Below, piece by piece: positions 2,228 to 49,310 of a stretch of 64,000 bases of DNA (position 1 is the stretch's first letter; each line of letters opens with the position of its first letter). This DNA comes from Candidatus Melainabacteria bacterium (GTDB lineage: Bacteria; Cyanobacteriota; Vampirovibrionia; Obscuribacterales; Obscuribacteraceae): the NCBI GenBank assembly GCA_003963305.1, contig RXJR01000004.1:246562-310561 (forward strand). The letters are read 5' to 3'. Below the pieces are notes generated by a model. That model ran no database searches. It was not told where the DNA came from and saw only the letters and a list, made by a program, of their open reading frames with translations. Position numbers and translations under genes: made by a program.

Positions 2228-2439
2228 AGGTTTGCTGAGTGGAATTTCTTAAACTACCGTATGGCGTCTTCTAACGCGCCGACTCATCATAACGGCTACG
2301 CCAGGTCCGGGGACGCAAATCCAGCGCGTCGCCGACAAGGCAGGACAGAGTTTATCATGACTCAGCTATCAGCTATTAAGATGCATTCCGCATGTTTCCT
2401 GTACACTTGAAGACCATAAGCCTCAGGCGGAGTAACTAC

Positions 2440-3405
2440 ATGCGAAAGAAATCGGTATTAGCACTGTTGTTTGCAGGAGGACTCCTGAGTTCAAAACATC
2501 CTGCACTGTCTGCCGATTATCGTTCTACTGAAGGTCACAAAGACAATGGCGTTGTCCAAAGCGTAGCGGAAGATTCGCAGCTACCACCAGAACTGAGAGC
2601 ATACTTTCTTCTCCAACTGGTGGAAGGTTTAATTGACCGCAGGAGCTCCATCGGTGAGAAAAAATTTGAATACAAAGTGCAGGTCAGTCAATCGTGGTGG
2701 CTATCAAAAAAACAAACGGCTCTGCGAGACTTTTTGCAACGTGTAGCTCGCAGCGAGCAATTGGAACAAAAGAATCCCAGTTCTAATCCGATACCTGCCG
2801 CAACAAAGAAATTTGCGCAGTCAATGATCACCAAAGCGCTTGCAGAACTTGATTCAAGCAGCGACGACTTCTGCAAGTTGAACTTTTACTTTATTGCTTC
2901 GAATCAGTTCAAAATATTTGGAGATCAAAGCGGCTACTTGAAATACAAGAAGATCGTAGATGATGCCATTCATTCTTGCGAAGCAGACAATTCAACCGCT
3001 AACGACAATACTATCCTGGCTGCAGCAGCGATTCTGGACGCCATGGCGTACGCAATAATACCGGTAAATATCCCTGATCGATTCGACCTGAAAAATTCTG
3101 AAAAGGTCGATTTTACCGAGCAAGAGTATTCAGAAAGCCGAAAGCTCAAACAGCGTTCTAATGCCATTCTCGATCACCTCAAATCAGACAATCACAACAG
3201 GCGCAAAGCACATCGGGATCTGGCCCTCTGGTATTTAGTGCTTCAGAAAGACCAGGAAAGCGAAGCGGAGAAAAAAGTCTTGTTTGACCTGGTGGGAATT
3301 CACGACGACCGATTACTCTTCCCGACCTCTGGCGGTTGTGGTCACGTGGTCTGGTGGGTAGTAGATGTCAAAGAACAAGTTGGCTACGACTGTGGAATGG
3401 GATGA
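2440..3405 (+). CDS. Exported protein with a Cys-Gly tail, partner of the first MNIO
   Basis: Unrecognised 321-residue protein. ATG 2440 is chosen because it follows AGGCGGAG (2425-2432) and opens a clear signal peptide: MRKK, a hydrophobic core, then a likely cut after ALSA. The mature part is mostly helical and charged. The last 30 residues change character: GGCGHVVWW and a terminal YDCGMG place two Cys-Gly pairs close to the C-terminus. The next gene, 12 bases downstream, is an MNIO enzyme, a family known to modify cysteines in peptides, and Cys-Gly is also the motif in known HvfA-type substrates. A substrate role is inference. Otherwise it is a hypothetical exported protein. Confidence 0.7.
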   Translation: MRKKSVLALLFAGGLLSSKHPALSADYRSTEGHKDNGVVQSVAEDSQLPPELRAYFLLQLVEGLIDRRSSIGEKKFEYKVQVSQSWWLSKKQTALRDFLQRVARSEQLEQKNPSSNPIPAATKKFAQSMITKALAELDSSSDDFCKLNFYFIASNQFKIFGDQSGYLKYKKIVDDAIHSCEADNSTANDNTILAAAAILDAMAYAIIPVNIPDRFDLKNSEKVDFTEQEYSESRKLKQRSNAILDHLKSDNHNRRKAHRDLALWYLVLQKDQESEAEKKVLFDLVGIHDDRLLFPTSGGCGHVVWWVVDVKEQVGYDCGMG

Positions 3406-3417
3406 CAGTCGACAAAA

Positions 3418-4590
3418 ATGAAACCAGCGCAACTTAAACCAATGCTGGGAGTATCTCTGATGCCGTCGGATGATTTCCGAAAAGCGTCCCGCAGTCTATT
3501 TGAAAGTAACCAGATCCAGGTCATAGAGTGGAGTTTCGATTTTTCATGGCTGGGAAATGAAATAGAGCCCTGGTGCACAGAAATCATCGATCGCTTCAGC
3601 AGCTCAAACAATCTAATTGGTCATGGGGTTACGCTCTCGCCGCTATCAGCCAACTTCTCAAAGCGCCAGGAGAACTGGCTGGCCAGGGTGCGCGATGAAT
3701 TTAAAACACGAAACTACGTACATGCATCTGAACATTTTGGCTTCTCTGAGGCAGGGCCAATTTCGCATGGCGCACCAATTGCGGTGCCAATGACGGCGGA
3801 ATCACTCCGCACCGGCACAGAGATGCTGAAACGCTATGCTGAGGCAACGCAATGTCCGGTGGGCTTGGAGAACCTCGCCTTTGCATTCAGCCTCGATGAC
3901 GTTAAGCGCCAGGGCGAATTTATTGACCGCCTCATCTCCGCTGTCGATGGTTTCCTTGTCCTTGACGTGCACAACTTGTATTGTCAGGTTGCGAACTTTG
4001 ACGTTCCGATAACGGATTTACTGAACTCATATCCACTCACAAAAGTTCGCGAGATGCACCTCGCAGGAGGTTCATGGTCTGAGTCGGAATCACGAAAACG
4101 TTTTGCTGTGCGCCGGGACACACACGACGACAGTGTGCCGCAAGATGTATTCAATTTTGCCGCCCTGGGGCTAAAACTCTGTCCAAACATCGAATTCGTA
4201 ATTTTGGAGAGACTCGGGTGGACAATGTTGGATGAAGAAGCGCAAGCTGGATTTCGAGAAGATTTTGAAACGCTTGCGGAGATCCTGGACGCGACCTATT
4301 CTCAATCACCGTTGTTAAATGCAGAAGCTCTGTTTTCAAATCCGGACTGGCGTCCAGTATTGAGAGAGTCCTTTCTGCCAGGCTCGACGGAAAAACAATG
4401 CCTTCCAGAATACCAGAATCGACTTTTGGAGCTTCTCTCAAGCAACAAGCCAAGCGCTGAGATATTCGAACTGCTGAAAAGCGATCCCGCGTTCGAGAAC
4501 TACCAGAACTACGTTTCGAACTTTGATCCAGACATGGTCGCCGTCGCTTGCGAACTCATGAGAAAGTGGGCGCGTCGAACCGAGTGCTAA
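3418..4590 (+). CDS. MNIO / DUF692 multinuclear iron oxidase family protein (first copy)
   Basis: Member of the DUF692 (UPF0276, MbnB/TglH-like) family, TIM-barrel enzymes with a multi-iron centre that oxidatively modify peptide cysteines. The expected metal ligands can be followed: H69 (GHGVTLS), H106 (SEHFGF), E151 (GLENL), D183 and N186 (LDVHNLYCQ), H214 (REMHLAGG), D234 and H236 (DTHDD), and E264 (ILERL). After about residue 290 there is a C-terminal extension of about 100 residues ending in DPDMVAVACELMRKWARR, absent from the second copy at 45098. No DUF2063-type partner lies beside it. It sits 12 bases after an exported protein with two terminal Cys-Gly pairs. No good ribosome site is seen. 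Its 3' end overlaps the convergent DHH-like gene by 4 bases. Confidence 0.88.
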   Translation: MKPAQLKPMLGVSLMPSDDFRKASRSLFESNQIQVIEWSFDFSWLGNEIEPWCTEIIDRFSSSNNLIGHGVTLSPLSANFSKRQENWLARVRDEFKTRNYVHASEHFGFSEAGPISHGAPIAVPMTAESLRTGTEMLKRYAEATQCPVGLENLAFAFSLDDVKRQGEFIDRLISAVDGFLVLDVHNLYCQVANFDVPITDLLNSYPLTKVREMHLAGGSWSESESRKRFAVRRDTHDDSVPQDVFNFAALGLKLCPNIEFVILERLGWTMLDEEAQAGFREDFETLAEILDATYSQSPLLNAEALFSNPDWRPVLRESFLPGSTEKQCLPEYQNRLLELLSSNKPSAEIFELLKSDPAFENYQNYVSNFDPDMVAVACELMRKWARRTEC

Positions 4591-5789: not shown

Positions 5790-7205
5790 TCAGGGCAAGG
5801 TGCTCTTCGCAATTGCGTCATAGATAGACCCGGGCTCGATGTGCTCATTGCTGTGCATCACCTGGCTATAGTATGGCTCAGGCAGCACTCGCAAAACAGT
5901 CATCAAGCCATGCACACCCATCGACCACCCCTTGCGCATACCGCGGGTTTCCCTGGGCTCATTGACTTTCATCATCGATGCCATATTCATGTTCATGCCT
6001 TGCATGTCCTCAGGATATCCAGGCGTTTTGAAAGCAGGCAGCTGAAGCGCATCGACAGGCTCGGGCAAATTATCCACATTCGACAGAAACTGCTGAATGT
6101 TATAGCCAGGTCTGATGCGCGGTCCCGATTGACGCACCATATGATTCATCATGTGATGAACCATGTGGCAGTGAAAAATCCAATCGCCGGGATTATTGGC
6201 AATGAATTCAAAATCCTGAACCATGGCAACGCCCACCAGCGTGTTGTTTCTCGGAATCCACGCGCTGCTTGGTATACGCCCACCTTCGCTGCCTGTTAAC
6301 CAAAATGTGTGACCGTGCAGATGAATAGGATGATGCTGCATGGGACTAAAATTCATCAATCGCACCCGGACACGCTCGCCATGCTTCACTACCAGGGGAG
6401 TGGCATATGGTCCGCTGCGTCCGTTGATTGTGTGCCAGTTCCAGTCCATTTGCGTACTGTCTGCGATATTTGAATTTGCGGGAATGAGAAAGTTCTGATA
6501 GCACAGAGCAAAGTCTCGATCGACGGATGGCTCAAACGCAATTTTCGGATGAACGATAAAGAAACCGCACATTCCAAGCGCCTCTTGCATAGGCACGTGC
6601 GAGTGATAGAAGAACGTGCCGGTCTGGTGCAAACTGAATTCATAAGTGAAACTCTTGCCCGGCGGAATCGGATCTTGCACCAAATAGGGAACCCCATCCA
6701 TTGCAATTGGCAGTTCAAAGCCGTGCCAATGCAAAGATGTAGGCTCCGGCAAATTGTTTTGGACGACTATTCTGACTCTATCGCCTTGAAACGCCTCAAT
6801 CAGTGGACCCGGGCATGAGCCGTTATAGCCCCATACATTCATTTGATAGCCCGGCAGCAGTTCCTGCTTTACCGCCATAGCGGTCAATCGAAATTCTTTG
6901 ACACCATTGACCATCCGAAATGAAAGTTTTTTGGTGTCAGGAGCCACAACCGGCACCGGCGGTAAACCGCTTTTCCGCAAGCCAGGCATCATCTTGCCGA
7001 GGTAGTGCGGACTATCAGGAGGACCACCGTATGACGGACGATAACGAGAAAACTCCTTAAAATCGGAGTCGACTCCAGCCTGATTCACTGAATGCGGTGC
7101 GACCATAGCCTCTGCCGAAGGTTGTACCCCCGCACCAGCTGCGAAGGTCAGGGCAGTACCCGCTGTCAGAAAATCTCGTCTGGTAAATCTTTCGTTTTCA
7201 TCCAT
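5790..7205 (-). CDS. Two-domain multicopper oxidase with Tat signal
   Basis: Periplasmic copper oxidase of 471 residues. A twin-arginine motif (TRRDFL, residues 8-13) before a hydrophobic Ala-rich stretch indicates export in folded form. The four copper motifs are present: HWHG (159-162), HSH (201-203), HPIHLHGH (292-299) and HCHMVHHMMNHM (345-356). The last contains the Cys and His of the type 1 site. Only about 185 residues separate the first and last motifs, which fits a two-cupredoxin oxidase rather than three-domain CueO. Met-rich pieces (MQGMNMNM; MMNHM) suggest copper or Cu(I) handling. ATG 7205 is preferred to an in-frame TTG at 7211. It lies 35 bases after the TolC-like gene and is probably cotranscribed with it. 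Confidence 0.9.
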   Translation of the reverse strand: MDENERFTRRDFLTAGTALTFAAGAGVQPSAEAMVAPHSVNQAGVDSDFKEFSRYRPSYGGPPDSPHYLGKMMPGLRKSGLPPVPVVAPDTKKLSFRMVNGVKEFRLTAMAVKQELLPGYQMNVWGYNGSCPGPLIEAFQGDRVRIVVQNNLPEPTSLHWHGFELPIAMDGVPYLVQDPIPPGKSFTYEFSLHQTGTFFYHSHVPMQEALGMCGFFIVHPKIAFEPSVDRDFALCYQNFLIPANSNIADSTQMDWNWHTINGRSGPYATPLVVKHGERVRVRLMNFSPMQHHPIHLHGHTFWLTGSEGGRIPSSAWIPRNNTLVGVAMVQDFEFIANNPGDWIFHCHMVHHMMNHMVRQSGPRIRPGYNIQQFLSNVDNLPEPVDALQLPAFKTPGYPEDMQGMNMNMASMMKVNEPRETRGMRKGWSMGVHGLMTVLRVLPEPYYSQVMHSNEHIEPGSIYDAIAKSTLP

Positions 7206-7240
7206 TTCCAATTATCCGGTTAGGTGGGAGCTACTCTGCG

Positions 7241-8845
7241 TTAACGTGGTTGCGGTGTTGCATCGATGTGTCCTGGTGGTGTCACTCCTGGTGGTGGCAC
7301 CAATCCGCCTGTTAGCAGAAATCCATTAATCTCTACACCAGTTTGCTGACAGGCAAGCAAATGACGAATGTATTCCATTCTGGCTTTTACATAATCGCGC
7401 TGTGCCTCCAGTACAGCAGGCCATTCCAGCCTCGTATCCTTATAACTTTCAAGAGCAATTTCATACTTCTCTCTTGTCTGCGGAACCGCCACTTCGCGAT
7501 AAGCACGAACGAATGCGGCGGATGTTTTGTAAGCATTGAAATGTTCAGCCAGGCGTCTTCTCAAATTGAGCTCAACCAGCCTCACCTGAGCTTTCTGTCG
7601 GGACAGATCGGCCTCAGCCTGTTGAATGGTGCCCTGGTTTCGATTAAATAGAGGGATGTTAGTGACATTGACTCCGGCGACTGCTGCAACACCTCTGTCG
7701 AGCTGGTCGTATCCGGCTCCTCCACTCAAACTGACATTAGGGATGGGCTGCCGATGTTCACGTTGCAGCGTAATTTCGTCTGATTTGAGTTTCGCCTTCG
7801 CTTCTCCTAACTCCGGACTATCAGCCAGCAACTTTTGCAGTGAGCTATCAAAGTTCAACTCGGCCGGATGCTCATCCAGGCGCCCCTTCAGCTTACTGTA
7901 GGGAGCGTCGATACCGACTACAGTCGTTAACGCTTGCCAGGCAAACTGCACTTCGTTTTGAGCCCCTATTACTCTGGCTTTCTGCAGTTCTAAGTCGATA
8001 TTGGCGGCACGCAGAGTAATTTGATTTGCCTGACCCATGTTGTGCATTTCTCCGGCTGTCAGCCACATATCTTTGACTGACTTCATCATCTCTTCCTCGA
8101 GTTTCAGAAGTTCGGCGGAAGCAAGAGCTTGCAAGTAGGCCTTCTGAACATCGTTTTTAACGCGCCATCGCTGAGCAATTGCTTGCTGCTCCGCCGCTGA
8201 CGTGCGAGCCTCATACTTTCGACGGCTGTATTTAAGTTTGCCGCCCAGGATCACCTCTTGCCCGATCGAGCCACCCTGGAATTCACCGGCTCCGGCAGTT
8301 GGAAGCCCCATCAAGTCACCGCGATAACCCACGGACGGATTGGGCCAGATACCGGCTTGAAGCGCTTTTCCCTTCTCACCCTTTATCTGTGCCTGGGCTT
8401 GAATCAGCGTGGGATTATTCTGTTCCGCGAGCTTTTCGAGGTCATCGAGACTGTATGATTTTGAATTTGCATTGTCGGAATCATTGATCTCGAGATGACC
8501 TTTCGGCATCAATGTCTGTGGTGGCGAGGCATTAGTCGTTCCCGACATATCCATGCCAGGCATGCCGGTTCCCGGCGATGGCATCTTCGTTGCAGGAGTG
8601 GACATATCCATGCCAGGCATGTTCATACCAGGCATGTTCATACCAGGCATGTTCATACCAGGCATGTTCATTCCTGGCATGCTCATACCGGGCATGTTCA
8701 CGCCGCCGTTCGTCTGATTACGGACTGGTGATGAGGCAGATGCTATGACTCGATTGCCCGCCGCAACACACGATAAGACAAGTCGAGAATCAATACTCAA
8801 GCCGAGAAGTAGTAAAGCAGAAGCGTAAAATTTCTTGGCGTTCAT
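7241..8845 (-). CDS. TolC/CusC-like outer membrane efflux lipoprotein with Met-rich head
   Basis: Outer membrane channel component of 534 residues. The N-terminus has a signal sequence ending VLSC, a lipobox-like site with Cys26. Next come about six MPGM(N/S/D) repeats (about residues 51-80) and more Met/Pro motifs, then two copies of the TolC-type coiled-coil domain (from about DDLEKLAEQNNPTLIQAQ). Methionine-rich segments bind Cu(I)/Ag(I) in CusB/CopA-type proteins. Placement just upstream of a multicopper oxidase supports copper resistance. No RND pump or membrane-fusion protein lies beside it. The DNA behind the MPGM repeats is a 15-bp tandem repeat (about 8609-8700). I start at ATG 8845; an in-frame TTG at 8881 is an alternative. 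Confidence 0.87.
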   Translation of the reverse strand: MNAKKFYASALLLLGLSIDSRLVLSCVAAGNRVIASASSPVRNQTNGGVNMPGMSMPGMNMPGMNMPGMNMPGMNMPGMDMSTPATKMPSPGTGMPGMDMSGTTNASPPQTLMPKGHLEINDSDNANSKSYSLDDLEKLAEQNNPTLIQAQAQIKGEKGKALQAGIWPNPSVGYRGDLMGLPTAGAGEFQGGSIGQEVILGGKLKYSRRKYEARTSAAEQQAIAQRWRVKNDVQKAYLQALASAELLKLEEEMMKSVKDMWLTAGEMHNMGQANQITLRAANIDLELQKARVIGAQNEVQFAWQALTTVVGIDAPYSKLKGRLDEHPAELNFDSSLQKLLADSPELGEAKAKLKSDEITLQREHRQPIPNVSLSGGAGYDQLDRGVAAVAGVNVTNIPLFNRNQGTIQQAEADLSRQKAQVRLVELNLRRRLAEHFNAYKTSAAFVRAYREVAVPQTREKYEIALESYKDTRLEWPAVLEAQRDYVKARMEYIRHLLACQQTGVEINGFLLTGGLVPPPGVTPPGHIDATPQPR

Positions 8846-8929
8846 AAAGCAAGCGGGCAGCTGACGTGCGTATTTTAGCAACTGTTGTTAGCAAAAACGC
8901 ACGCAAGATGCGAACTTCGCCAGGCCCCA

Positions 8930-41959: not shown

Positions 41960-42628
41960 ATGGCAGCAAAACCAAAGAAGAAAAAAGCGACACGGAGAAG
42001 CAAAGTCTCCCCAGCGGCAGCTATGGCAGAAGAAGCCGGTTCAGCCGGTTCCGCAAAGCCTAAAAAAGCGGCCAAAAAGCCAAGAAAGGCAGCAGCTAAA
42101 AAAACAACTGCTAAAAAGACAGCAGCCAAAAAGCCTGCAGCCAAAAAAGCAGCCCCTAAAAAAGCTGGAGCCAAAAAGGCAACCGCCAAAAAGACAACAG
42201 CTAAAAAAGCAGCCCCTAAAAAAGCTGGAGCCAAAAAGACAACAGCTAAAAAAGCAGCTCCTAAAAAAGCTGGAGCCAAAAAGGCAGTAGCAAAGAAGGC
42301 GACCGCGAAGAAAGCCGCTCCTAAGAAAGCCGGTGCAAAGCGCGCAACCGCCAAGAAAACCACTCGCAAAGCCGCTCCTAAGAAAGCTGGCGCGAAGAAA
42401 GCAACTGCTAAAAAGGCAACTGCTAAGAAAGCAGCTCCTAAAAAAGCAGCAGCCAAAAAGACAACTGCTAAGAAAGCAGCTCCTAAAAAGGCAGCAGCCA
42501 AAAAGCCAGCTAAAAAGGCCGCTACAAAGAAGAGAGCAACCAGAAAAACTGGTGCTAAGAAAGCTAAAGCATCGGCAGCCACCACTAACGGTGGAGATAA
42601 CGCCGGCGGAGAATCCTCAGAAGGTTAA
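41960..42628 (+). CDS. Histone H1-like Lys/Ala-rich DNA-binding protein
   Basis: A 222-residue protein that is almost entirely Lys, Ala, Pro and Thr. It has at least a dozen copies of (K)[13 protein letters not shown]-type motifs after an N-terminal patch [11 protein letters not shown]. It resembles chlamydial HctB and bacterial H1-like proteins, which compact DNA through their charge. There is no globular domain. The GGGAGGA ribosome site is 8 bases upstream. The DNA is itself repetitive (33- and 15-bp units), and an apparent long open frame on the other strand is a mirror of that composition. A perfect hairpin terminator follows. Confidence 0.85.
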
Positions 42629-44265: not shown

Positions 44266-44562
44266 ATGCAACGACTTTCCAAAACAGAACTCACCGCACT
44301 TTTGACGGTGCTCGGATTATCAAGCGCTGCCATCGCCAACGCTAATCCAGTTAGCAGCACTGAGAAACAATTCCTTGTCGCTGAAAAGGAAGGTGCCAAA
44401 AAGTCCGGAGAAATGGCTTGTGGCAAAGGCGCATGCGGCGCAGATGAAAAGGGCGCAGCCGCAGCCAAAGAGAAAGCCGCCAAAACGGAGAAAAAGACCG
44501 AGAAAAAGACTGAGGAAAAGAAAACTGAGACTAAGAAAAAAGCAGCTAGCTCCTCCAAGTGA
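44266..44562 (+). CDS. Exported two-cysteine peptide 1 (candidate MNIO substrate)
   Basis: A 98-residue product that looks like a bufferin/HvfA-type precursor. A signal peptide (cut near residue 26, AIANA) is followed by a mature peptide of about 70 residues. The only two cysteines, C52 and C57, lie in MACGKGACGADEKG, close to the Cys-Gly repeats of HvfA-like peptides that MNIO enzymes convert to copper-binding heterocycles. The last 35 residues are a Lys/Glu/Thr run (EKKTEKKTEEKKTETKKK). The strong AGGAG lies 7 bases before ATG, which fits high expression. It is followed 178 bases later by peptide 2 and then the MNIO pair. Modification is inferred. Confidence 0.8.
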   Translation: MQRLSKTELTALLTVLGLSSAAIANANPVSSTEKQFLVAEKEGAKKSGEMACGKGACGADEKGAAAAKEKAAKTEKKTEKKTEEKKTETKKKAASSSK

Positions 44563-44739
44563 GCGTTGTTTAAGTAATGTTGAGGTCGCAAAAGTAACTC
44601 ACATTTGGTTATTTCAGTTTTTACACAGTTATTACAGACTGGCGGATAAGGCTTAATGATGGTGTCATAGGATCACCGCTAGTGCCCTCATGGATGACGT
44701 TTCCATGGGGAGTTCGTTTAGAAGTGTAGGAGGACTACA

Positions 44740-45027
44740 ATGCAGAAGACTCAATTGGCAGCAGCTTTGGTTGCGGTGCTTGGTTTGACAATGGGCGGAG
44801 CCGCCTTTGCAGCTGACGCTGAGAAAAAGGCTGAAAAGTCAACAACAGTAACTGAAAAGAAAGAAACAGCTACTGAAAAGGGCAAAGAAGGCGCTTGCAA
44901 GGGCAAAGATGCTTCATGCAAGACCAAAGAAACAAAGAAGAAAGAAACAAAGACCACCAAGAAAGAAAAGAAGGGCGACAAGTCCACAGAAACTAAGACT
45001 GAAACCAAATCAGAAGAAACCAAATAG
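44740..45027 (+). CDS. Exported two-cysteine peptide 2 (candidate MNIO substrate)
   Basis: A 95-residue paralogue of peptide 1: signal peptide (MQKTQLAAALVAVLGL..., cut near AAFA, residue 24), Lys/Glu/Thr-rich body, and just two cysteines, C53 and C60, in EGACKGKDASCKTK. The cysteine positions nearly match peptide 1 (52, 57), but each Cys is followed by Lys, not Gly. GGAGG sits 7 bases before the ATG. The terminator arm overlaps its stop codon. A role as substrate for the MNIO enzyme 71 bases downstream is inference; a plain Lys/Glu-rich exported protein is the alternative. Confidence 0.8.
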   Translation: MQKTQLAAALVAVLGLTMGGAAFAADAEKKAEKSTTVTEKKETATEKGKEGACKGKDASCKTKETKKKETKTTKKEKKGDKSTETKTETKSEETK

Positions 45028-45055
45028 TTCTAAGTGACTATTTGGTCTTTTTTTT
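45019..45055 (+). terminator. Intrinsic terminator between peptide and enzyme genes
   Basis: ACCAAATAG (45019-45027) and CTATTTGGT (45038-45046) pair perfectly around a 10-base loop and are followed by CTTTTTTTT. It is strong in form. It would let most transcripts stop after the peptides, so that enzyme genes are expressed less than substrate, as RiPP clusters often arrange. Confidence 0.85.
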
Positions 45056-45097
45056 GAAACGGTCAATCGCATTCTGTGCGCGGTGTAGAATCACTTC

Positions 45098-46048
45098 ATG
45101 ACCAATCAGTTCTTAGCTGCAAAAAAACAGCTGCCAAATTTAGGCATCGGTTTAGGGTTGCGCAGAGAACTAGCCAATGAAACATTCGACAACGCGAACA
45201 AAATTGACTGGTTGGAATTAGTTCCTGAAAACTACATGGGACTTGGGGGGGCTGCGAGACAGCGACTTGAGAAAGTTGCTTCACGCTTCCCCCTCGTTTC
45301 TCATGGGGTGAACTTGTCTCTCGGCTCGACTGACGAACTCAACCCCGACTATCTGGCGGCGCTAAAAAAGCTGGTCGACCGAATCGACGCACCATGGTTT
45401 AGCGACCACCTCTGTTTTACCAGTGTGGATGGTGTCTACCTGCATGATCTATTACCGCTTCCGTTTTCAAAGGAAGCCGTGAAACATTGCGCCAGTCGCG
45501 CGCGGCAAGTGCAGCACACACTCAACCGACCTTTTCTGATTGAAAATATTTCTGCCTACATGCACATGCCGGGCGGCGAGATGACTGAGGCGCAGTTCCT
45601 TTCATCAGTGCTGGAGGAAGCCGACTGCGGCATGCTTCTCGACGTCAACAACGTCTATGTAAATTCGCAAAATCACAAATTCGATCCATTTGAATTTCTC
45701 AAACAGATTCCTCTTGAAAGAACTGTACAGATTCACGTCGCCGGCCATTCAACCGGTGAAGGCACAATCATCGATACGCACGGCTCAGCAATTATAGAGC
45801 CTGTTTTTCAACTACTGAAATTTGTACTTGAACGCACTGACGTCAAAGCGGTGATGATTGAGCGCGATCAAAACTTCCCTCAATTTTCCGAACTATTGGA
45901 CGAGCTGGCACGCATTCGTGCCATAGCAAACGAGGTGCAACCCACACTCGCATCAGTTAGTCGGGCCCATTTGAGCTTCGATCAAAGCGCACCGATCATC
46001 GAATCATCTAAAGGACGCGAAAATGTTGGCGCCGCCCTCACTGCATGA
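45098..46048 (+). CDS. MNIO / DUF692 peptide-modifying iron enzyme (second copy)
   Basis: A 316-residue DUF692 (UPF0276) protein, the compact MbnB/HvfB/BufB-like form. The ligands expected for the multi-iron centre are H69 (SHGVNLS), H104 (FSDHLCF), E149 (LIENIS), D182 and N185 (LDVNN), H213 (IHVAGH), D226 and H228 (DTHGSA), and E255 (MIERD). In known members the iron oxidises Cys to a heterocycle or other product. The next gene, overlapping by 26 bases, is a DUF2063-type partner, the standard enzyme-partner order. The ATG has no clear ribosome site, in line with lower expression than the peptides. Confidence 0.93.
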   Translation: MTNQFLAAKKQLPNLGIGLGLRRELANETFDNANKIDWLELVPENYMGLGGAARQRLEKVASRFPLVSHGVNLSLGSTDELNPDYLAALKKLVDRIDAPWFSDHLCFTSVDGVYLHDLLPLPFSKEAVKHCASRARQVQHTLNRPFLIENISAYMHMPGGEMTEAQFLSSVLEEADCGMLLDVNNVYVNSQNHKFDPFEFLKQIPLERTVQIHVAGHSTGEGTIIDTHGSAIIEPVFQLLKFVLERTDVKAVMIERDQNFPQFSELLDELARIRAIANEVQPTLASVSRAHLSFDQSAPIIESSKGRENVGAALTA

Positions 46049-46847
46049 AGTAGAACAGATACTTTCTTCGCTCTGGTTGAAGGAATCAGTTCGCCGGAGC
46101 TTTCAGAAAGACGAAGGCTGCATCGCGTCTAGCATTGCAGGAAGTATAGACAAAAGTGGAGTCGAACTGTATGCGACTTTAATTGAGTACGGTCAACAAG
46201 ATCTGATGGCGTCGGTTTACCCATATTGCGCCAGGATCTTGAAAAAGAAGTGGGAGCCGACAGTTCGCGAGTATTTCTTGACCTATCCAGCTAACCACTA
46301 CAACCTCAATCGAGCCGCCCAACGATTTCCACTTTTCTTGAAGAATGAAGGCAAACAGTTTTTGCAGAAATATCCATTCCTCGTGGAACTGGCAGAGTAC
46401 GAATGGCTGGAACTAGAGCTGCTTGAAGTTGATAAAGACGTCACACCGCAACCGAATCTGGTGCTTTCTAAGCCTGACCAATTCATTCAATTTGGTCCAT
46501 TACTGAATCCAGCTTTGATCTTGCGGCAATACGAGTATCCAATTTCATCTGTCATCGAGAGAATCGACAAGAAACAATCCATTAGCTCGGTAAAGCCACA
46601 GGTTTCGCGCGTGGCGATCTTCAGGAATCCACTGACGAACCATTGCAAATACCTGGATGTTGGCGAAATTGCCTTTGAAGTTATACAAGCCAGCATCGAT
46701 GTGCCTCATTCGTATGCCGATCTGATCAGTCTCGCCGTAGCGCGAGCGGCAAATCCCGATCCACAGAAAACTGTTGTAGAATTTCTCGACCTGGTAGAGA
46801 AACTGCAGGAATTGCAAGTGTTCATTGGCAGCATAAAAGTTTCCTAG
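46023..46847 (+). CDS. DUF2063 (HvfC/BufC-like) MNIO partner protein
   Basis: A 274-residue soluble protein. Its N-terminal half fits the DUF2063 pattern: VELYATLIEYGQQDLMASVYPYCARILKKKWEPTVREYF with a helical LVELAEYEWLELE. In known systems it binds the precursor leader and hands it to the MNIO enzyme, acting as a recognition factor. The second half (about 150-274) forms a distinct beta/helical part. It overlaps the MNIO gene by 26 bases, so the pair is translated together. It is the strongest sign that the locus is a genuine MNIO peptide system. Confidence 0.82.
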   Translation: MLAPPSLHEVEQILSSLWLKESVRRSFQKDEGCIASSIAGSIDKSGVELYATLIEYGQQDLMASVYPYCARILKKKWEPTVREYFLTYPANHYNLNRAAQRFPLFLKNEGKQFLQKYPFLVELAEYEWLELELLEVDKDVTPQPNLVLSKPDQFIQFGPLLNPALILRQYEYPISSVIERIDKKQSISSVKPQVSRVAIFRNPLTNHCKYLDVGEIAFEVIQASIDVPHSYADLISLAVARAANPDPQKTVVEFLDLVEKLQELQVFIGSIKVS

Positions 46848-46908
46848 GGCGCCAACTGGCACTCGGCAACTTCGAAATCGACTCACCCAAAATCAAAGGA
46901 CTGTTGAA

Positions 46909-47607
46909 ATGACTAAAGTCTCTAGAATCGCACTTCTGGCATCCGTTATCGCTGTTGCGTCCGCAGCTCAGAGCGCATTGGCAAAAGAACTCAAATTTGA
47001 GGTAGGCGATCCGAAAGGCAGAGACAACGTCAACTTCAACTCCAACGCGCCTATTGAAGTAATCAACGGACACACCAGCAAAATTACCGGTTCCGTCTCT
47101 ATCGACGATTCTCTCGATTTGAGCAAACAGCCGATCGCAGCCGAATTCAACGTCGACCTCGCCAGTATCGACACCGGCATCGCACTGCGCAACGAACATA
47201 TGCGTGACAACTTTTTGGAAACTGGGAAATACCCGAAAGCTACCTTCAAACTGAAATCGCTTGCAAGCGGCGCCACTGTGCTGAAAGACAAACAGAAGGT
47301 GCACCTGGAAGCCAGTGGAGATTTCACGGTTCACGGCAAAACAGTGCAGAAGAAAATTCCTGTCGATGTCACCTATTTCAAATTCTGCCCCGCCACTGCA
47401 GGCAAGTTCGAGAACTGCGATCTGCTGCAGATCAACGCTACCTTCCCGGTTGCTTTTGCCGATCACGGTATCAAGCGTCCAGAAATTGTCTTTCAGAAGT
47501 TAGCTGACACTGTATTCGTAACAGTCAACGTAACTGCGCACAAAGCTGTTAGCGGTGCCGCTGCACCTGCTAAAACAACTGATAAACCAGCGCCCCAGAA
47601 AAAGTAG
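46909..47607 (+). CDS. Exported YceI-family lipocalin-like protein
   Basis: A 232-residue periplasmic beta-barrel protein. The signal peptide ends near SALAKE. VNFNSNAPIEVINGHTSKITGSVSIDD and AALRNEHMRDNFLETGKYPKATFKLKS are the YceI core, a fold that binds polyprenyl lipids or quinones. The tail after about 210 is Ala/Lys-rich. The function here is unknown. It lies 61 bases after the DUF2063 gene in the same direction and may be cotranscribed with it. Confidence 0.9.
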   Translation: MTKVSRIALLASVIAVASAAQSALAKELKFEVGDPKGRDNVNFNSNAPIEVINGHTSKITGSVSIDDSLDLSKQPIAAEFNVDLASIDTGIALRNEHMRDNFLETGKYPKATFKLKSLASGATVLKDKQKVHLEASGDFTVHGKTVQKKIPVDVTYFKFCPATAGKFENCDLLQINATFPVAFADHGIKRPEIVFQKLADTVFVTVNVTAHKAVSGAAAPAKTTDKPAPQKK

Positions 47608-47658
47608 CGAAGAGGAGCAGGCTGCTCCATGGTGAATGCGCAGGAACGTCGAGGCTGA

Positions 47659-48699
47659 ATGTCTTTTGAAGACCCATCTAAAGTCAAAATCGACCTGGTA
47701 GTAGGAGAGGATGACGCTGACCTGACCGAAGTGGTCGGCGTTGATCAATCAGCTACTGACTCGAAATCGCGATCGGAGTCCGAGTCCAACTCGGAGTCTA
47801 AACCGAAATCGGAATCCGACTCGATGTCGGAGTCCAAACCGAAATCGGAGTCCGACTCGATGTCGGAGTTTAAACCGAAATCGGAGTCCGAATCGCAGCC
47901 TGAGTCCGAGTCGAAGTCGCAATCGTCGGGTCAGGGACTAGAACACTCGCTGCAGCCGTGGAAAAATCGATTCGCCCGTTCTTCCAAAGGCGAAAGCACC
48001 CCACAGAATCCAGCACAGCAGCTACGGTCCCTACCCTTTCTGCTCTTGGATTACGGCACCTTCGGATTTGCGATTTTCAACATCGTCGCGATCTCCTGTG
48101 CTTTGTTCTTTTCACCTGGTGAACCTGTCTTCATGACAGGCTTTCTTCTGTTTCCAATCTTCGCGGTGCGAATTGTCGTGATGGTCAATTCGGTTAAGGC
48201 CAAGGGAAGGTTCGTTTCACTGGGACGAGCCATTCTCCCCATAATCATCAGCAACACAATGACGACCTGGGGAATTTTGCTTGCGCTCTCGGCCCAGGTC
48301 GTTGCGCTGGTCTTCCACCAGGTCCGGGGTTTGGAGGCAGCGCTTGGTCCGAGCCGCGAAAAAATTGCAATGGCGGTGTTTGCCTTCTGCGCGGCAGGTT
48401 CGATGCAGATTTTTCTAATCGCCATGCTGCTTGTGTCCATGTTGATATTCCAAAGGCTCTTTACCTGGATCTCCCGACGCACGCTGGAAATCAGCGCCGT
48501 CGACTTCGGTCATAAAAAGGCCGGCTCGATTGGACTGATAGCTGGTGCGATCTTCGGACTGTGCGGGCTGTACACGGCCCTGGGTATGGGCGGTGAAAAT
48601 TCCACTCAGACCATGAACATCTCGACATTGATCTGGTCGCTCGGAATTCTTATTTCAAGCCTGTTCTTCACAACGATTTCCCGGATCAAAAAGAAGTAG
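47659..48699 (+). CDS. Membrane protein with an acidic Ser/Glu/Lys repeat head
   Basis: An unrecognised 346-residue protein. The first 35 residues are acidic (VVGEDDADLTEVVGVD), then a repetitive cytoplasmic stretch (about 36-95) of SESKPKSESDSM units encoded by 36-bp DNA repeats (about 47760-47930). Four to five membrane helices follow (from about residue 125: YGTFGFAIFNIVAISCALFF onward) and a short Lys-rich end. The DUF family is not identified. It sits 51 bases after YceI and is codirectional with the peptide-modification genes, so a part in transport or retention is possible but unproved. Confidence 0.65.
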   Translation: MSFEDPSKVKIDLVVGEDDADLTEVVGVDQSATDSKSRSESESNSESKPKSESDSMSESKPKSESDSMSEFKPKSESESQPESESKSQSSGQGLEHSLQPWKNRFARSSKGESTPQNPAQQLRSLPFLLLDYGTFGFAIFNIVAISCALFFSPGEPVFMTGFLLFPIFAVRIVVMVNSVKAKGRFVSLGRAILPIIISNTMTTWGILLALSAQVVALVFHQVRGLEAALGPSREKIAMAVFAFCAAGSMQIFLIAMLLVSMLIFQRLFTWISRRTLEISAVDFGHKKAGSIGLIAGAIFGLCGLYTALGMGGENSTQTMNISTLIWSLGILISSLFFTTISRIKKK

Positions 48700-48878
48700 T
48701 CCCACAATTTATTTGCTTATCAGGTGCAGGCGGTGCTAAGTTCAACTATGCTTCATCGCAGGTAAACAAAAATCGCGCCGGCGTTCGAGTGTCTGAGAAA
48801 ATATTTGCCAGGAACTGACTGAACTGCTGAGCGTCTATATAGACTACATACACGTTTTCAAACTAGAAAGAAGTCATC

Positions 48879-49310
48879 ATGAATTATGCGCTCCGCAGCC
48901 GGCAAAAACCGTGGGTTGAGCCAGTCAGACCTGCGTTTCCGAAACGCAAAGACCCTCTGTTCACAGCTTTTCGAATCCTGCAAGTAATCTTCGTCGGGTT
49001 GCCGATAATTTCGGGACTCGACAAATTCTTCCATCTCACCACCAACTGGGACAACTATCTCGCACCGTTCATCCCGCAGATCACCCACATCGGTGCACAC
49101 GAGACCATGATTTTGTTAGCGCCGATAGAGATAGCAATTGGATTAATGGTGGCACTTAAGCCGCGAATCGGCTCGGCAGCTGCAGCCCTGCTTTTTCTTG
49201 TAATCTCCCTCAACTGCATGCTCACGCCCGGTCATTTACACCTGGCTTTGCTCGACCTGTCTCTTTTCGGAAGTGCCATCGTTCTCTGCTATTTGAGTTG
49301 GGACCGCTAG
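48879..49310 (+). CDS. DoxX-family membrane protein
   Basis: A 143-residue protein with four membrane helices: FRILQVIFVGLPIISGLDKF, IGAHETMILLAPIEIAIGL, IGSAAAALLFLVISLNCML and LALLDLSLFGSAIVLCYLSW. The first helix with a following G-DKF and a W region fits the DoxX/DoxD superfamily. In bufferin/HvfABCD-type loci a DoxX member is the fourth component. Here it is 1.3 kb downstream of the DUF2063 gene with a membrane gene between, so membership is plausible, not certain. An AAGAAG purine run precedes the ATG. Confidence 0.7.
   Translation: MNYALRSRQKPWVEPVRPAFPKRKDPLFTAFRILQVIFVGLPIISGLDKFFHLTTNWDNYLAPFIPQITHIGAHETMILLAPIEIAIGLMVALKPRIGSAAAALLFLVISLNCMLTPGHLHLALLDLSLFGSAIVLCYLSWDR

Follow-up and report, generated by a model that had tools for sequence, protein, structure and literature searches.

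Which genes belong to the cluster built around a DUF692 (MNIO) enzyme in a Melainabacteria genome, and what does the cluster make? The window, as we call the whole stretch of DNA analysed, comprises 64,000 nucleotides of contig RXJR01000004.1 (assembly GCA_003963305.1, positions 246,562 to 310,561) from a genome of 7.48 Mb. An initial annotation had placed seven open reading frames at 44,266 to 49,310 of the window, and all seven are present there (Table 1): two small, probably exported peptides, pep1 and pep2 (or pepA and pepB), the MNIO, a DUF2063-type partner, a YceI protein and two membrane proteins. We consider the locus to be, quite probably, a captophorin operon of the bufferin/oxazolin type, in which the cysteines of two peptides would be oxidised to form an exported metal buffer, the product with the Cys-Gly motif acting together with YceI. 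The Cys-Gly type of peptide is always encoded with a dedicated YceI, an arrangement of which we found no description. The anatomy of the locus, its conservation, the fold of the partner, purifying selection and the co-occurrence of pep1 and YceI are the direct results of the analysis.

A conserved operon of precursors, MNIO and partner

The host, a non-photosynthetic relative of the cyanobacteria, had been taken for a member of the Melainabacteria, and its nearest named relatives agree. The closest named homologues of the MNIO come from "Cyanobacteria bacterium SZAS-4", a metagenome-assembled genome (92% identity), and "Candidatus Melainabacteria bacterium" (85%), and further close homologues belong to Candidatus Obscuribacterales, which the NCBI taxonomy places within Candidatus Melainabacteria as an order.

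We define the "conserved operon" as pep2, MNIO and partner, preceded in some lineages by pep1 and followed in some by YceI. It is narrower than the locus first annotated. Many orthologous loci have the same two neighbours, each facing the other way: upstream a gene resembling alpha/beta-hydrolases, downstream one resembling TlyA (names from sequence). Peptides of the pep1 and pep2 types are found upstream of the MNIO throughout the order. The initial annotation had left it to related genomes to decide whether the peptides belong with the enzymes, and in these they stand next to them in conserved order. The 26-base overlap reported between the MNIO and partner genes is correct (46,023 to 46,048).

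The enzyme had been described as carrying all expected ligands, and the active-site motifs, aligned to 3BWW and MbnB, are conserved: SHGVN 68, SDHLCF 102, ENISAY 149, LLDVNN 180, HVAGHS 213, IIDTHG 224 and ERDQNFP 255. It narrowly exceeds the equivalog cut-off for the BufB bufferin maturase (NF050167; 315.5 against 310) and falls below that for HvfB (309.3 against 360). In FonB the Asp of the ERD motif is required as the proposed catalytic base, and the residue after ERD influences substrate choice, being Phe in Lys-Cys and Asp in Cys-Lys enzymes (PMC13097082). We placed both residues on the ERD motif by eye, in an alignment through 3BWW. The selectivity residue is Gln in the window enzyme and in the order's orthologues; it is Phe in three class-level enzymes (L071, L072 and L074), and in L084/L140 it is Asp. 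It does not separate loci with pep1 from those without, as both have Gln. The two arginines associated with Lys-Cys enzymes are also present in the window enzyme.

The partner scores above the PF09836 cut-off of 27.2 bits and below that of the HvfC equivalog (73.5 against 142). Since its structural model (pLDDT 86.8) matches NGO1945 (Z 16.5 over 199 residues) and TglI (Z 15.6), and the C-terminal region resembles recognition elements (RREs) of ribosomally synthesized and post-translationally modified peptides (RiPPs) with Z of about 9, we assign it by predicted fold to the PME1 type, despite the low HvfC score. The first proposal, a bufferin/Hvf-like MNIO-RiPP cluster, is thus borne out by the BufB cut-off and by the NGO1945/TglI fold with its RRE.

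Two precursor classes and a dedicated YceI

The tandem peptides that had been described as paralogous are both there, and their paralogy is doubtful because their cysteine motifs and family profiles differ. Across 12 pep1 homologues the pattern CGxGxCGxD..GA.AA is invariant, and the motif is sometimes present twice; the core of the window copy is CGKGACG. Pep1 matches the HvfA oxazolin precursor profile (NF050188) weakly (E 6.6e-4; 20.2 against a cut-off of 95). Pep2 does not match that profile and has no curated NCBIfam family, and neither peptide has a Pfam match to DUF2282, the Buf1 precursor domain. Homologues of pep2 share the signal-like start MQKTQLAAALVAVLGL and carry 2-9 cysteines, mostly in (KGKEGSC)n heptads, and the window copies of pep1 and pep2 have just two each. 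The Sec signals were judged from hydrophobicity and sequence only. In the terms of PMC13097082, the motifs place pep1 in a Cys-Gly class, like the EGKCG group, and pep2 in a Cys-Lys class. Most orthologous loci have a pep2-type precursor and the distribution of pep1 is patchy, and at the paralogous loci L084/L140 both motifs are joined in a single precursor. Tandem precursors have already been reported in general terms (PMC12452194).

Purifying selection acts on both peptides. Compared with same-genus relatives, pep2 has a dN/dS of 0.16-0.23, and the counts for pep1 are 57.5 synonymous differences over 68 sites and 24.5 nonsynonymous ones over 226. The synonymous divergence of pep2 (dS 0.21) is low relative to that of the MNIO gene (1.08), which is consistent with high expression. 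A terminator-like hairpin lies between the two genes. A fair share of the gaps between pepB and MNIO at orthologous loci also hold a hairpin with a T-run, the stem sequences being different; promoter-like and terminator-like matches in the region are no commoner than in shuffled sequences, and we therefore used only this recurrent hairpin. It is likely to be an attenuator that yields more precursor than enzyme.

The YceI protein scores well above the PF04264 cut-off of 23.7 bits, and the structures closest to its model (pLDDT 66.7) are E. coli YceI, TT1927b and BcnA. Some YceI is present in 49 of the 53 genomes of the order. The copies linked to MNIO operons are distinct: they score 70-88 bits, versus usually more than 130 for a genome's generic top copy, and, in a tree with 16 generic copies, 20 of them group as a single clade (support 100/100).

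Pep1 and the linked YceI were both found in 17 of 39 loci and both missing from 22; neither occurred alone. One locus (L136) was counted as bearing pep1 on the strength of a gene at the end of a different contig in that genome. PepA matches of at least 60 bits were found in 18 genomes, namely the 17 with linked YceI and G071, in which pepA sits at the end of a contig and the orthologous MNIO was not found. The pairing was tested on a careful two-gene tree, an earlier quick tree with too few supported branches having been dropped. On this tree there are five changes in pepA and five in YceI, both traits show the same pattern at the tips, and none of 80,000 simulations of independent YceI evolution was equally concordant. 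One of the two genes opens the operon and the other closes it, which excludes their joint loss by a single small deletion; replacement of the whole operon could account for their joint absence. YceI is a core gene in the lineages with pep1.

The association extends beyond the order. Linked YceI was found in 27 of the 382 genomes of a class sample, and in a phylum sample of 386 genomes only in the window's own genome and in G048. In one family (f3) the order Cys-Gly precursor, MNIO, partner, YceI recurs, and the only precursor type seen ahead of the MNIO is Cys-Gly, one locus of the family (L223) having no recognised precursor. In G048 an EGKCG precursor adjoins YceI (29 bp), with the MNIO and partner 25 kb distant, and in G463 the linked YceI stands at a contig end. 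Genomes with linked YceI nearly always carry an MNIO. A Cys-Gly precursor is thus what accompanies the linked YceI most steadily. We found no report of YceI together with MNIO/DUF692 in the openly accessible literature, and the main text (supplements apart) of two landscape papers mentions neither YceI nor Melainabacteria captophorins.

Neighbouring genes and related loci

The gene order first proposed, precursor-MNIO-partner-DoxX, did not hold, as it is YceI that is conserved in fifth place and neither membrane-protein gene is conserved. The product of the last gene has no DoxX Pfam match and just a weak MauE match (E 0.003, below the cut-off). The gene was found in one same-genus relative, is absent from the other and was not found at the remaining loci of the order, and DoxX was rejected as a core component. 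DoxX genes are common in bufferin operons without strictly defining them, and the cluster in the window lacks one. We know of no established role for the accessory protein of such clusters, which is usually DoxX. The Ser/Glu-repeat protein was likewise rejected, as neither same-genus relative has a match to it at this position; in one locus (L095) its slot is occupied by an unrelated TPR-like protein.

Table 1. Features of the MNIO locus, in window coordinates
Feature	Position	Strand	Remarks
pep1 (pepA), predicted exported Cys-Gly type precursor, core GEMACGKGACGADEKGAAAAK	44266..44562	+	98 aa; Cys 52, 57
pep2 (pepB), predicted exported Cys-Lys type precursor, KGKEGACKGKDASCK	44740..45027	+	95 aa; Cys 53, 60
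Intrinsic terminator-like hairpin, 11 pairs + T8	45019..45054	+	Overlaps pep2 stop, precedes MNIO gene
MNIO (DUF692) enzyme, 316 aa	45098..46048	+	PF05114 E 7e-104; RR 22-23, ERD-Q 255-258
PME1-type partner, DUF2063 + C-terminal RRE (~residues 143-274)	46023..46847	+	PF09836 31.5 bits
Captophorin-linked YceI lipocalin, exported, dedicated clade	46909..47607	+	PF04264 85 bits
Ser/Glu-repeat membrane protein, outside conserved operon	47659..48699	+	Unmatched at same place in same-genus relatives
Small membrane protein, weakly MauE/DoxX-like, not core	48879..49310	+	In 1 of 2 same-genus relatives

Relatives also carry orphan pep2-like precursors with no MNIO nearby (L174:2691-3173, L175:3019-3276 and L178:2424-2771). 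One has about 14-15 KGKEGSC repeats, two lie near genes for sigma factors of the extracytoplasmic function (ECF) type, and one orphan pep2-like gene is near a methionine-sulfoxide-reductase-like gene, these neighbours being named from sequence. The window's own genome encodes, on contig C31, an orphan protein of 242 aa (L173:2771-3499) with a pepB-like start, MQKIELAAALVAVLGI, followed by (CKGKDAS)n cysteine heptads and a fasciclin domain (124 bits). This fusion was not seen in two same-genus genomes, and since no MNIO adjoins it, the protein might be a substrate in trans.

Other MNIO arrangements were observed. On the same contig C31 a natural MNIO-DUF2063-NGO1945_C fusion of 617 aa (L063:7001-8851) is preceded by an exported-looking peptide with GCNYPCGCHYGGKS, whose start, SKPDLTALLTALS, resembles that of pep1. 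At 2,392 to 4,590 of the window, an exported-looking protein of 337 aa whose last residues are YDCGMG stands ahead of a divergent MNIO (PF05114, 95 bits). The exported-looking proteins before the same divergent MNIO end in CPACGLG, CPGCGMG and CLKCGRG/CEECGRG in three other relatives, and the preceding protein in L090 ends in CGMG; L091 has no such ending. The CGxG ending is a candidate for a new C-terminal precursor motif. Beside this MNIO (5,790 to 8,881) lie a multicopper-oxidase-like gene and an outer-membrane-efflux-like gene with MPGM/NMPGM repeats, as read from sequence, which together would make a likely copper-handling island. At three loci (L083, L087 and L088) another MNIO type follows a short membrane protein with a Gly/Cys-rich tail, GCGGGCGGCGG, which is TIGR04222-like by eye. 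At 41,960 to 42,628 of the window, a 222-aa protein of Lys/Ala/Pro repeats (AAKKAxAKK) resembles histone H1 in composition.

A proposed mechanism and its alternatives

The cluster can be placed among systems already described. Captophorin clusters (fontiphorin FonABC, oxazolin HvfABC and gonophorin; PMC13097082, PMC13419390) have the same MNIO and DUF2063/RRE partner and an upstream exported Cys-rich precursor, of which pep1 and pep2 are probable counterparts, and the pep1 core resembles their CGEGKCG repeats. Unlike them, the present operon has two precursor classes under one MNIO, a Gln at the selectivity site, YceI in place of DoxX and a Melainabacteria host, and its proteins do not reach the HvfA, HvfB and HvfC equivalog cut-offs. 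Bufferins (Buf1, with DUF2282, and Buf2, with 6 or 12 cysteines; PMC12452194) share the bufABC gene order, tandem precursors, an MNIO that here stands just above the BufB cut-off and, in BufA2, the Cys-Lys precursor type. They differ in that our precursors have no DUF2282 match and 2-9 Cys heptads rather than the 6/12-Cys pattern, and in that the core lacks DoxX and sigma/anti-sigma genes. With the BcnA/YceI lipocalins, described together with the LcoA cytochrome b561 (PMC9113575), the linked YceI has family, predicted fold and export in common; unlike them it is paired with a Cys-Gly captophorin operon whose core has no b561 gene, and its clade stands well apart from the generic YceI of the same genomes.

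Captophorin chemistry has been described, as has what the signal peptide does (PMC13097082, PMC13419390); in oxazolin the signal peptide serves as the leader, and it is HvfC that makes the active diiron state possible (PMC13419390). By analogy with oxazolin (PMC13419390), we propose that the RRE of the partner binds both Sec-exported precursors in the cytoplasm through their signal/leader region and presents them to the diiron MNIO, which would oxidise their cysteines, most likely to 5-thiooxazoles. The modified peptides would then leave the cytoplasm by Sec and, once outside, act as a buffer for Cu(I) or a comparable soft metal, and the pep2-MNIO hairpin may hold the precursor level above that of the enzyme. 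A single enzyme would serve both Cys-Gly pep1 and Cys-Lys pep2, and the Cys-Gly product would work with the dedicated exported YceI, in place of the DoxX accessory of other clusters. Isoprenoid quinones are ligands of YceI lipocalins, one of which, BcnA, gives protection from lipid peroxyl radicals (PMC9113575). Our simplest guess is that the linked YceI handles a quinone or lipid in the same compartment, perhaps quenching metal-driven lipid peroxidation or relaying electrons to the metal-peptide. That the Gln-type MNIO processes both motifs, and that the Cys-Gly thiooxazole peptide and a quinone/lipid-binding YceI couple metal sequestration to membrane redox protection, is a tentative suggestion.

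Several points weigh against this scheme. We infer peptide modification and copper binding, as well as leader recognition, the chemistry, the metal and the role of YceI. No copper regulator was identified adjoining the operon. The Gln at the selectivity site is neither the Phe nor the Asp of the known groups, and service of both classes by one enzyme is not assured because FonB, which processes Cys-Gly substrates, rejects Cys-Lys (PMC13097082). A leader common to pep1 and pep2 was sought with position-specific scoring, for which the background set was small and probably included pepB copies, and remains no more than a possibility. One 97%-complete genome (G455, locus L227) has a YceI of the linked kind, the weakest match, yet no PF05114 match. 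Among the independent contrasts only three have good branch support, a number that does not suffice for a sign test (p 0.25).

It is possible, though doubtful, that the peptides are modified for a role other than copper buffering, such as another metal, oxidative stress or envelope protection. The guarding function of YceI lipocalins against lipid peroxyl radicals (PMC9113575) and the ECF sigma-factor and methionine-sulfoxide-reductase-like genes beside relatives' orphan pep2-like genes would suit such a role, but characterised MNIO-PME1 products are generally copper-binding (PMC13097082, PMC12452194). An unlikely alternative makes pep2 the only substrate, with pep1 and YceI as a separate, unmodified metal- or redox-binding module of the same operon. 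The wide occurrence of pep2 beside a patchy pep1, the evidence from FonB that Cys-Gly and Cys-Lys substrates can be exclusive (PMC13097082) and the separation of the Cys-Gly precursor and YceI from the MNIO in G048 all favour it; it is opposed by the HvfA-type CGxGxCG pattern of pep1 with its weak HvfA match, the near-constant presence of an MNIO in genomes with linked YceI, the hybrid precursors of L084/L140, and family f3, where the sole precursor type seen ahead of the MNIO is Cys-Gly. That both peptides escape modification and are Lys/Glu-rich structural or metallothionein-like proteins, adjacent to the MNIO by accident, would fit their low-complexity composition and the two cysteines of each window copy, but is very improbable given their order-wide position, the retention of the Cys motifs while linkers drift, the varying heptad number and the RRE partner.

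On the captophorin reading, the operon is a natural test of how an MNIO chooses between Cys-Gly and Cys-Lys substrates. Captophorin-type clusters would also be extended well into the Melainabacteria, and a YceI family that has tracked one precursor class on several separate occasions offers that class a concrete partner with a known type of ligand.

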